Shown here one piece after another: positions 54,855 through 58,516 of a stretch of 64,000 bases of DNA. Below the pieces are notes generated by a model. That model made no database searches. It was given only the letters and a program-made list of their open reading frames with translations, and was not told where the DNA came from. Source of the DNA: Victivallis vadensis (lineage in GTDB: Bacteria > Verrucomicrobiota > Lentisphaeria > Victivallales > Victivallaceae); NCBI RefSeq assembly GCF_003096415.1, contig NZ_QEKH01000010.1, positions 1 to 64,000 on the forward strand, in the 5' to 3' direction. How positions within the stretch are numbered: the first letter of the stretch is position 1; each line of letters begins with the position of its first letter. A program made the position numbers and the translations under genes.

Positions 54855-54892
54855 ACAATATGTTCTGATGATGAAAGATTTTGGAGGAGAAC

Positions 54893-57043
54893 ATGAATCG
54901 TTTTTCGGGAGTACGCCGCAATGCCGCAAAATCGCGGAAAATCCGGCTGGGACTGTGGTTGCCGGCTCTCTGCGTGTTGCTGTGGACGGCCGGATGCGCG
55001 ACCGCGCGGACTGCCCCGGATGAAACCGGTGCAGTTGCCGCCCATACGGGGCCGTGGACGCTGACGGAGTTGACCGATGAATTGGGCGGGCCTGATCCGA
55101 TAGAGGGATTCAACCGGGCGATGTTCAGCGTCACCGATTTCGTGATGGTCTGGATTGCGGACCCGGTGGGGCGGGTTTATACGACGATTCTGCCTCGTCC
55201 GGTGATCGAACATTTCGACAATGTCTGCAAAAATCTGGAATTTCCCGCCCATGCGTTCAGCAGCCTCGGCCGCGCCGAATGGAAGGGAGCGTGGGATGAG
55301 ACTGCCCGTTTCCTGCTCAATACCACCGTCGGCATCGCGGGGATTTTCGATCCCGCCGCCCATTGGTTCGATATTTATCCGACGGATTCGGATTTCGGGC
55401 TGATGTTCTGCGACTGGGGGATCGGGCCGGGTTGCACGTTCATGCTGCCGCTCGTACCTACGGTCAATGTGCGCGATACGGTCGGATATCTTTTCGATAC
55501 GGCTTTCGACCTTAAAACCTACATTCCCTATGCCGGTTATGCAACGGCTTTGAACCGGATGACGATAGCGGAACGCGATTACTCCAAATTGCGGGCAGGC
55601 AGCTCGGACCCCTATAAGTCCTATCGCGAAATGATGCTGGCACGCCGGGAATTGCAGCGGCGCATGTGGTTCTACCGTGCGAAAAACGCCGCTGCCGAAC
55701 AGCGGCGGAAACTGGAAAAGGAACCGGTTCCGGTTGAGGAGCCGCATGTTGACGCTCCGGCTCCGCGCCCGGCGTGGGTGACGGCCGGGTGGAAGCAGAT
55801 TCCCGGTTACCGGCCGCAGAGCCCGGTGCTGGATACCATGCGGGTCGCCCGGTTCAATGCGCAGAATGACGATGACCCGTGGTATATGCGCCTTTCCTTC
55901 CTGAACGGCGATTTCAGCCGGCAGTGCGAAGACGGCGAACTGGAACTTGCACCGGATACTCCGCCGCTGCATTACGGTTTCTGGGCCGCTCCGGAGCCGG
56001 AAAAGGATCAGAAGGGGGAACCGGTTCCGCTGCCGGAAAAGCTGGCGATCCTGATTCCCGGCATCGGCGGCAACTATTTCGGCATGACCTCGACCGCGCT
56101 GGCGGAGCTGCTGCATCTGCATGGATATGCGGTGCTTTCGCTGGACAGTCCCTTTGCGTGGCAGTTCATGGTGGCGACCGGCAACAGGCGGCTGCCGGGG
56201 TTTCTGCCTGACGATGCCGCTGAAATCCGTGCCGTATTGCCCGGAATCCTCGGCAACCTGAAAAAAGACGGGCTGATTCGTGATCCGCAGATTGTGATGC
56301 TCGGTTATTCGATGGGGGCTTTGGAAACATTGAAGATTTCGGAACTGGAGGAGAAGGACAACACCCTGAATATCAAACGGTATCTCGCGATCAATCCGCC
56401 GGTCGAACTCTCCAACGCGATCGACCGGGCCGATGCGCTGGCGCAGACCGGTTCCGGCTGGAGCAGCGCCGAAGCGATCGATCAGTTGAGCGATGTGGCG
56501 GGAAAGGGATTGTCGGTCCTGTCGCGGACCGCTCCGCCGTATGATCCCGCCGCCGGTGGGGAACCGGGATTCGATTACCGTTTGCCGGTTTCGCAGGAGC
56601 AGGCCGAGTATGTCGCGGCGCTCTATTTCAAAACCTGCCTGCGCCATCTGCTGCTTTTTGCTCACAAGGAGCGCACGCTTCCTCAATTTCAGAATGAGTA
56701 CCGCTGGGGAAAACGCAATGCGCTTTACCATGAGATCGACAAGATCGGTTTCAGGGAATACGCTGAAGAGTTTCTGGCTCCTGAATACCCCGATATTCCG
56801 TTGGCCGAGCTTTACCGGCAGTCCGGCATGCGCTCTTTCGCGGAGTCACTCAAGCGCAACCCGGAAGTGCGCGTGATCCAGAGCTTCGACGATTTCCTGC
56901 TGACCGAAGAGGACCGCAAATGGCTTGACGCCACATTCGGCAAGCGGCTGACCTGGTTCGACCACGGCGCCCACCTCGGCAACCTTTACACCCTCCCCGT
57001 GCAACAGCAAATTATCGCCGATCTCGAACTTCCCGCCGAATAA
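54893..57043 (+). CDS. mlaA: MlaA (VacJ) lipoprotein fused to an alpha/beta hydrolase
   Basis: 716 residues. A lipobox (WTAGC, Cys35) is followed by an MlaA domain at about residues 65-275: DPIEGFNRAMFSVTDFV, RFLLNTTVGIAGIFDPA, DWGIGPGCTFMLPL. Canonical MlaA is about 250 residues and extracts phospholipid from the outer membrane. Here a Pro-rich linker (VPVEEPHVDAPAPRPAW) leads to a second domain of about 320 residues with an alpha/beta hydrolase layout: LIPGIGGNYFGM, nucleophile elbow GYSMGA (Ser473) and His694 in DHGAHLGN. A lipase or phospholipase acting on MlaA cargo is a natural guess. GGAGG lies 5 bases before the ATG. Confidence 0.87.
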   Translation: MNRFSGVRRNAAKSRKIRLGLWLPALCVLLWTAGCATARTAPDETGAVAAHTGPWTLTELTDELGGPDPIEGFNRAMFSVTDFVMVWIADPVGRVYTTILPRPVIEHFDNVCKNLEFPAHAFSSLGRAEWKGAWDETARFLLNTTVGIAGIFDPAAHWFDIYPTDSDFGLMFCDWGIGPGCTFMLPLVPTVNVRDTVGYLFDTAFDLKTYIPYAGYATALNRMTIAERDYSKLRAGSSDPYKSYREMMLARRELQRRMWFYRAKNAAAEQRRKLEKEPVPVEEPHVDAPAPRPAWVTAGWKQIPGYRPQSPVLDTMRVARFNAQNDDDPWYMRLSFLNGDFSRQCEDGELELAPDTPPLHYGFWAAPEPEKDQKGEPVPLPEKLAILIPGIGGNYFGMTSTALAELLHLHGYAVLSLDSPFAWQFMVATGNRRLPGFLPDDAAEIRAVLPGILGNLKKDGLIRDPQIVMLGYSMGALETLKISELEEKDNTLNIKRYLAINPPVELSNAIDRADALAQTGSGWSSAEAIDQLSDVAGKGLSVLSRTAPPYDPAAGGEPGFDYRLPVSQEQAEYVAALYFKTCLRHLLLFAHKERTLPQFQNEYRWGKRNALYHEIDKIGFREYAEEFLAPEYPDIPLAELYRQSGMRSFAESLKRNPEVRVIQSFDDFLLTEEDRKWLDATFGKRLTWFDHGAHLGNLYTLPVQQQIIADLELPAE

Positions 57044-57758
57044 TGTGGGATTTCGCCTTCGGCGAGCAGGGCGCTTCGCCCCTGCACCCCGACCGGCAAG
57101 GTGCCGGCGCCGGGTACTTAGATCCGGGAAAGGCGAAACGCCTTTCCCTCCGGGCGGGGGAGGCTCCGCTGTGGACAGGCAAGCGAGTACCTGAGCGGCA
57201 CACTGCTCCGGTCGGCGCAAAGCCTGCTTTTTTGCAGGCTTTAGGCACTCCCTGCACCTGCTGCCGCCGGAGGTCACGCGCGGAACGGCCAGATGCTGAC
57301 CGGGTAATAGAAAGATACCCTGATGGAGGCTGATAAGAGTTTATCTGCCGATATACGCAAAGCGAGGTCAGGCAACAATACAATTGCCATATCACAGGCA
57401 AGCATCTTGGAATACGAACCTTACTGAACCTTGCCTGTATTATGAGGATAGGCAGAGTTCAGCCTCCATGAGTGTAATTTCACATCAGATGGTCAGCATC
57501 TGGAGGTTCCGCGCGTGACCTCCGGCGGCAGCAGGCGCAGGGAGTGCCCGGCGTCGGCAAAAAAGCCGACGCGGTCGCCGACCGGAGCGGTGTGCCGCTC
57601 CTGTACAACCATGCCTGTCTCTACCGGGGCCTCCCCCACCCGGAGGGAAAGGCGTTTCGCCTTTCCCGGATCTAAGTACCCGGCGCCGGCACCTTGCCGG
57701 TCGGGGTGCAGGGGCGAAGCGCCCTGCTCGCTCCAAAGGAGCGAAATCCCTTTGCGGA
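57044..57758. repeat. Large inverted repeat with internal hairpins between convergent genes
   Basis: No gene. The left arm (57045-57300) and right arm (57490-57745) are inverted copies, about 85-90% alike by eye. One run of more than 85 bases looks identical, starting GCGAGCAGGGCGCTTCGCCC. The centre (57301-57489) holds a further inverted pair ATGGAGGCTGA / TCAGCCTCCAT. The arms contain the CCGGCAAGGTGCCGGCGCCGG module of repeats at 7 and 10 kb. Convergent genes end at each edge. Confidence 0.85.
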
Positions 57759-58400
57759 CTACAGGAGGAAAGCGAGCTGGAGGGCGAGTCCGACGATCAG
57801 GGGAATGGAAAAGTTGTCGTCCAAGCGGAGCTGCTTTTCAAAAAGCTCGGCGGCGGCGGCCGGGAAGAGTGCGAGATAGCCGGCAAAATAGAATTTGCAC
57901 GGCGCTCCGGTGACGGCGAAGAGAATGGAAAGCGCGACGGCTCCGACGACGATGAAGGCGGCGACTCCCTCATAGCTTTTGTTGTTCGGGGCCTTGTGGC
58001 GTCCGAACCGGCGGCCGACCAGAGCGGCGGCGGCGTCTCCGGTCAGCATCACGGCGAGAGCTCCGGCGGCGGCGAGCGGAGCGTACAGGATCACCACAAG
58101 AAGCGCGGCGGCGAGCACATAGGCGCCGCCGGAGACGATCCAGGCGCCGGGCGCGGGCGGCTTGCGCAGCATTTTCCGGAAGAAGAAACCGTACATCGGA
58201 GCCATCACCGGCCAGTTGCAGGCGTAGGCGTGTTCAAACAGCAGCGTGATGACCAGCAGGACCGCGAAGATTGCGGCGGTAATGCGCCAGTCCGGGATCA
58301 GGATGATCGCAACGACCATCCACAGCGAGGAGAGGTGGATCCCTTTGCGCTTCAACTCTTCAAAATAAGTAATCTGAGGATGCGGAGTGTCCGGTGCCAT
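57759..58400 (-). CDS. CTP-transferase-like polyprenol/phosphatidate kinase family membrane protein
   Basis: 213 residues with about six transmembrane segments. It resembles SEC59/dolichol-kinase and CdsA-like proteins: ELKRKGIHLSSLW near the N-terminus and LTGDAAAALVGRRFGRHK, followed by KSYEGVAAF. This family uses CTP to phosphorylate prenols or diacylglycerol. AAAGGA is about 10 bases before the ATG at 58400. It could recycle undecaprenol or make a lipid precursor. Confidence 0.75.
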   Translation of the reverse strand: MAPDTPHPQITYFEELKRKGIHLSSLWMVVAIILIPDWRITAAIFAVLLVITLLFEHAYACNWPVMAPMYGFFFRKMLRKPPAPGAWIVSGGAYVLAAALLVVILYAPLAAAGALAVMLTGDAAAALVGRRFGRHKAPNNKSYEGVAAFIVVGAVALSILFAVTGAPCKFYFAGYLALFPAAAAELFEKQLRLDDNFSIPLIVGLALQLAFLL

Positions 58401-58516
58401 GGCAGAAATTCCTTTCGTTTGTGAAATATAGCACCGGATCGGAAGCCCTGCCAGCGCAGAGGAAAAAAATCCCCGGAAAGAATGGGAAAAACTCATACAT
58501 TTCCCCTCGGAAAAGA

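Follow-up and report, generated by a model that had tools for sequence, protein, structure and literature searches.

The window, a 64,000-nucleotide stretch of contig NZ_QEKH01000010.1 of the gut bacterium Victivallis vadensis, contains one unbroken reading frame of 716 codons that joins an MlaA domain to an alpha/beta-hydrolase domain (Table 1). The lipoprotein signal of the encoded protein spans residues 17–35 and ends at Cys35, in the motif TAGC with alanine at position +2; most fused relatives also have a lipobox, with FAGC, AAGC and LAGC as variants. A preliminary description of this DNA had proposed a continuous frame carrying a lipobox, an MlaA domain and a hydrolase, preceded by a strong Shine–Dalgarno sequence and divided by a Pro-rich linker, and our analysis bore out each of these elements. 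In the AlphaFold2 model of the whole chain, the pLDDT fell to 58 at linker residues 281–290.

Table 1. Features of the fusion gene and of the adjoining DNA, in window coordinates.
Feature	Position	Strand	Remarks
MlaA–MlaY fusion gene	54893..57043	+	716 codons plus stop; same fusion in relatives
Shine–Dalgarno GGAGG	54883..54887	+	5 bases before ATG 54893; from sequence
Lipoprotein signal peptide	54893..54997	+	lipobox TAGC, Cys35 codon 54995-54997, Ala at +2
MlaA domain, residues 68–253	55094..55651	+	PF04333; phmmer 5nuq; Foldseek 5nuo
Helix 259–276 and Pro-rich linker, residues about 254–309	55652..55819	+	pLDDT low point
MlaY-type alpha/beta-hydrolase domain, residues about 310–712	55820..57028	+	fold model; MlaY homology
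Asp441, invariant, in PGxxPxD	56213..56215	+	aligns with MlaY Asp158
Catalytic Ser473 (GYSMG)	56309..56311	+	alignments; column of MlaY Ser187
Catalytic Asp667	56891..56893	+	alignments; column of MlaY Asp388
Catalytic His694 (GAHLGNLY)	56972..56974	+	alignments; column of MlaY His415
Large inverted repeat	57062..57731		just downstream of fusion gene
Outer arms, 156 nt	57062..57217 / 57576..57731		92% complementary
Inner arms, 108 nt	57226..57333 / 57459..57566		81% complementary
DGK-like ORF	57759..58496	-	membrane protein

The genes on either side, one for PEP carboxykinase upstream and a DGK-like ORF downstream, were not found beside the fusion in the other loci compared, even in those of the same genus (flanks of 1.5 to 5 kb), and were therefore not used as functional context. 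By eye, the product of the downstream ORF resembles the dolichol/phytol/diacylglycerol kinase group (SEC59/DGK1/VTE5), with no significant match in Pfam. Between the fusion gene and its downstream neighbour, the inverted repeat makes up a structure like a long hairpin or a mobile element.

Several comparisons identify the N-terminal half as MlaA. Residues 68–253 matched PF04333 over profile positions 3–193 of 195 (E = 9.1e-42; 143.4 bits against a cut-off of 25), phmmer related this half to 5nuq (E = 8e-14), and Foldseek superposed the MlaA fold of the whole-chain model on 5nuo_F with a TMt of 0.79 and 3.0 Å over 199 columns. A full MlaA domain, a lipobox and the fold are thus shared with canonical MlaA of E. 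coli and Klebsiella (PDB 5nuo, 5nup and 5nuq). Thirteen residues of the domain are invariant in the fusions (N74, F140, N143, G150, G169, W175, G176, G180, P186, R194, D202, D239 and Y241), and a search of the V. vadensis genome found no other MlaA. The C-terminal tail of E. coli MlaA recruits MlaC, and its removal abolishes function (PMC10245069, PMC10719372). It is at this end that the hydrolase is attached: whereas the canonical E. coli protein has a short MlaC-recruiting tail, the window protein has a hydrolase of about 400 residues there, in a genome without MlaC.

The C-terminal half matched Abhydrolase_6 of Pfam weakly (E = 3.6e-5; 25.0 bits, just below the cut-off of 26.3), yet its modelled fold supports the initial assignment to the alpha/beta hydrolases. 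Modelled alone by AlphaFold2 with an alignment of relatives, the domain reached a pLDDT of 94.4 and a pTM of 0.94 and took up an alpha/beta-hydrolase fold, for which VIA-align gave a Z score of 19.2 to 2jbw (265 residues, 3.6 Å); the nearest structures were assorted esterases, peptidases and thioesterases, none of which stood out. In an alignment of the window's order, Ser473 was present in 47/47 sequences, and Asp667 and His694 were present in 46/46 untruncated ones. The serine and the histidine had been correctly picked out from the sequence; Asp667, the acid of the triad, had not been named. Asp441 is as invariant as the triad, being present in 47/47 sequences of the order's alignment and in all 50 aligned rows when MlaY is included. 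The whole-chain model had a pLDDT of 88.9 and a pTM of 0.87, a value that only hints at a fixed arrangement of the two domains.

In Pseudomonas aeruginosa, MlaZ (PA3239) is reported to be an MlaA paralogue and MlaY (PA3238) an adjacently encoded lipase (PMC11131202, PMC12569750). MlaY is proposed to take up and degrade outer-leaflet lipids removed via MlaZ (Guest et al. 2023, as cited in PMC11131202, PMC11977310 and PMC12569750); it is described as acting with MlaZ on misplaced phospholipids (PMC12569750) and as a phospholipase with the triad Ser187, Asp388 and His415 (PMC11977310). By tblastn of plasmid records, we found a P. aeruginosa record encoding a 453-residue alpha/beta hydrolase and, three bases further on, a VacJ-family protein, and identified the hydrolase as MlaY because it has Ser, Asp and His at exactly these positions. 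A hydrolase profile built from the MlaA-linked hydrolases of PVC and allied bacteria, with MlaY left out, scored MlaY at 247 bits (E = 1.9e-72 at PDB database size), a Fusobacterium protein at 231 bits and a Skermanella protein at 197 bits; among proteins of known structure, the highest score was 22.8 bits. The MlaY-specific score rules out the accidental capture of a generic esterase. MlaY was also matched by blastp, with an E value of 6e-21 in a two-sequence database. In a joint alignment, the overall identity to MlaY is low, at 23% (90 of 391 aligned positions), and Ser473, Asp667 and His694 share columns with MlaY Ser187, Asp388 and His415.

Adjacent pairs of MlaA-type and MlaY-type genes also occur in Skermanella and Fusobacterium. 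The pair of Fusobacterium vincentii lies on NZ_CP084075.1, a 2.1-Mb record that is labelled 'plasmid' and is probably a chromosome, and its MlaY-like protein has Glu as the triad acid. Because both halves of the window protein have homologues in MlaZ and MlaY, and because an MlaA is paired with a hydrolase in both cases, we identify it by homology as MlaZ–MlaY in one chain. The two systems have in common an MlaA-family channel, an exported hydrolase of the same family, a triad that aligns one for one and genes that are kept together. By contrast, P. aeruginosa has two genes, in the order mlaY–mlaZ, beside a canonical MlaA–MlaC pathway, whereas V. vadensis has one polypeptide in the order MlaA–hydrolase, as its sole MlaA and in a genome that lacks MlaC.

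The fusion is conserved well beyond V. vadensis. The protein was found in 51 of 61 genomes (its own and 60 relatives), and a single-frame fusion was found in at least 33 relatives within the window's order, in 19 further genomes of other orders and classes and in 58 named loci of several phyla, sets that partly overlap. The same architecture occurs in Lentisphaerota, where it had been suggested that it be sought, and in further phyla. Chance read-through, or an assembly artefact joining two genes, has next to no probability as an explanation and is ruled out by this conservation: the same unbroken fusion recurs in dozens of independent assemblies, including four that consist of a single contig or a few (G017, G026, G123 and G203). 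In other relatives the two parts are neighbouring or overlapping genes, with mlaA first and the hydrolase second, and both products start with ordinary Sec signal peptides. Since the split hydrolase has a Sec signal peptide of its own, its periplasmic placement is independent of the fusion. Among the loci compared for lipidation, fused proteins (L037–L047) mostly have a lipobox, whereas split MlaA and hydrolase genes (L002–L031) encode signals of the SPase I type, so that lipidation is gained or lost together with fusion.

The pairing with MlaA is close to exclusive. A scan of about 85,000 species for the hydrolase motifs only returned 67 loci, with the hydrolase fused to MlaA in 58, beside MlaA in 6, at a contig end in 2 and without MlaA in 1. 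The loci are labelled Lentisphaerota (including Victivallis), Verrucomicrobiota, Kiritimatiellota, Planctomycetota, Sumerlaeota and, in one case, a 'Deltaproteobacteria' MAG, although such labels are sometimes mistaken for MAGs. The one member that appears to be unpaired is an MlaY-like hydrolase of a Pseudomonadota MAG (L231:2731-3969), in whose assembly neither MlaA nor MlaC was detected. Within the phylum, a strong match to the hydrolase profile (E below 1e-30) was found in 106 of 388 genomes, including other orders and classes, and all 106 also carry MlaA. One genome of the same genus (G007) and about 16 others of the order, several of them at least 95% complete, have neither MlaA nor the hydrolase, indicating that the system is dispensable or has been lost in places.

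MlaC and the hydrolase alternate as partners of MlaA. No match to MlaC (PF05494) was found in the V. vadensis genome or in 60 of the 61 genomes searched, so the statement in the preliminary description that MlaA passes lipids to MlaC does not apply to this lineage, although a very divergent MlaC could escape detection by the HMM. MlaA is present in 153 of the 388 genomes of the phylum; MlaC was found in 1 of the 106 with an MlaA-linked hydrolase and in 44 of the 47 with plain MlaA (Fisher's exact test on the 2 × 2 table, p = 1e-33, a value that ignores common descent and treats lineages that are not independent as if they were). In the sole exception among the 106 (G203), a second, plain MlaA adjoins the MlaC. 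Three genomes have plain MlaA without MlaC (G287, G290 and G321); in G287 the contig ends inside the gene, and its MlaA clusters with the fused ones in our first tree. Among 20 further genomes, mostly of other classes or phyla, MlaC was present in two, each time beside a plain MlaA separate from the fusion, so that in all three genomes found with both, MlaC adjoins a separate plain MlaA. A purpose-built MlaC profile likewise found MlaC next to almost all plain mlaA genes and next to none of those linked to a hydrolase. As contrasts between hydrolase and MlaC also appear within families (f19 and f39) and within the class, the pattern reflects more than one deep split, and horizontal transfer could contribute to it. 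The first MlaA tree suggested two separate hydrolase clades. In a quick tree with wider sampling and no constraint, MlaZ fell with plain MlaA, and a single clade of all hydrolase-linked MlaA was not rejected (p-AU 0.85); we therefore claim no number of origins.

PldA (PF02253) had no match in the window protein, in the V. vadensis genome or in any of the 61 genomes, and its absence from relatives rules it out as the missing degradative enzyme. PldA/OmpPLA shares with the window protein the proposed output, the destruction of misplaced outer-leaflet phospholipids; PldA is, however, a beta-barrel whose active site lies at the cell surface, and its fold is unrelated to that of the window hydrolase. 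One report likens MlaY to the beta-barrel PldA (PMC11977310), a likeness that we did not adopt as PldA is unrelated. On one contig (C2), the V. vadensis genome has two MlaE–MlaD loci (L056:6120-8707 and L057:7143-8994), with MlaD proteins of 326 and 339 residues. In one locus an MlaF-like ATPase gene lies in between, and the other locus follows a small lipoprotein ORF (L057:6604-7146) reminiscent of PqiC. These loci, with their long MlaD, may provide a second route for intact lipids. The elongated MlaD of Veillonella is another solution that works without MlaC; V. vadensis shares the long MlaD, whereas the Veillonella bridge has no MlaA at all and presumably carries lipid in intact form (PMC10665443).

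These data point to a mechanism in which the N-terminal half would be exported, lipidated and set in the outer membrane as an MlaA channel, through which phospholipids that have ended up in the outer leaflet could leave towards the periplasm. The C-terminal domain, a predicted serine phospholipase of the MlaY family standing in place of the MlaC-recruiting tail, would receive and deacylate the lipid at the channel mouth. Because the hydrolase sits at the MlaC-recruiting end, lipid leaving the channel should encounter the tethered phospholipase at the place that MlaC would otherwise take. The products, lysophospholipid and fatty acid, would be recycled, and in this lineage degradation would replace the MlaC-dependent return of intact lipid. 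Our data show the architecture, the conservation of the fusion, its homology to MlaY, a triad that is intact in close relatives, export signals, the exclusive pairing and the lack of detectable MlaC and PldA; from these we infer phospholipase activity, hand-over within the molecule and recycling of the products. We consider it probable (roughly 0.78) that the protein is a one-chain MlaZ–MlaY in which the tethered phospholipase, instead of MlaC, takes over the outer-leaflet phospholipid that MlaA has extracted. The architecture and the proposed function, a possible degradation of lipid at the point of extraction as suggested when the frame was first described, have good support: each half is a genuine domain, and the hydrolase is a member of the MlaY family placed at the MlaC-recruiting end.

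Counting against this reading are the low identity to MlaY, the mixed set of esterases and peptidases among the closest structures, and the fact that acyltransferases and thioesterases share the alpha/beta-hydrolase fold. The MlaA half might do no more than anchor a periplasmic esterase in the outer membrane, with some other ester as its substrate, such as lipoprotein acyl groups, imported esters or envelope polysaccharide. MlaA, as a stable membrane protein, could act as a tether, and the generic esterases and peptidases among the nearest structures would fit such a role; the strong conservation of MlaA-domain residues in the fusions, with 13 invariant from N74 to Y241, the persistence of unfused hydrolases beside mlaA and the reported action of the homologue MlaY with MlaZ on misplaced phospholipids (PMC12569750) make a mere anchor improbable. 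Slightly less probable again is that the domain is an acyltransferase or transacylase moving acyl chains from the extracted phospholipid to another acceptor. The fold is common to acyltransferases, of which 2vat was among the Foldseek matches, and envelope acylation with phospholipid as donor is known from PagP. We found no acceptor-binding feature in the window protein, however, and the P. aeruginosa homologue MlaY has been described as a phospholipase (PMC11977310).

It is also conceivable that the fusion does not replace MlaC at all, and that lipid returns intact through the long MlaD of the two MlaE–MlaD loci, with the hydrolase in an auxiliary or regulatory role. The size of both MlaD proteins and the MlaF-like ATPase in one locus are compatible with such a return, and a long MlaD can bridge the envelope; the beta-barrel characteristic of the bridge form is, however, missing from PVC MlaD (PMC10665443). 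As MlaC and the hydrolase alternate as MlaA partners, we rate an intact return about as low as the anchor.

The preliminary description knew of no described case. For the mechanism this does not stand, because degradation coupled to an MlaA-family channel is already known from the two-gene MlaZ–MlaY of P. aeruginosa. The fusion itself was not found described in open-access literature on MlaA in Lentisphaerota, Verrucomicrobiota or Planctomycetes, or on MlaA joined to a hydrolase, although the founding MlaYZ paper may mention fused forms. Also apparently new, within the same literature, are the occurrence of the single-chain form throughout PVC and other phyla, the fact that it is the genome's sole MlaA, and its alternation with MlaC.

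The fusion provides strong evolutionary evidence for the proposed hand-over from MlaZ to MlaY, which has so far been inferred mainly from the genetics of one species, and as a single protein it would allow both extraction and destruction to be followed with one structure and one assay. That MlaC and the hydrolase alternate suggests that one channel has two exchangeable outlets, one for recycling misplaced phospholipid and one for destroying it. More broadly, we give even odds to the idea that Lentisphaerota, parts of Verrucomicrobiota and Planctomycetota and scattered other bacteria maintain the lipid asymmetry of their outer membrane with a degrade-only, single-protein machine, in which MlaA with a tethered phospholipase has displaced the MlaC shuttle, hydrolase and MlaC being interchangeable outlets. 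PVC bacteria, whose Mla systems have been catalogued as mostly MlaEFD, thereby gain a predicted asymmetry pathway.
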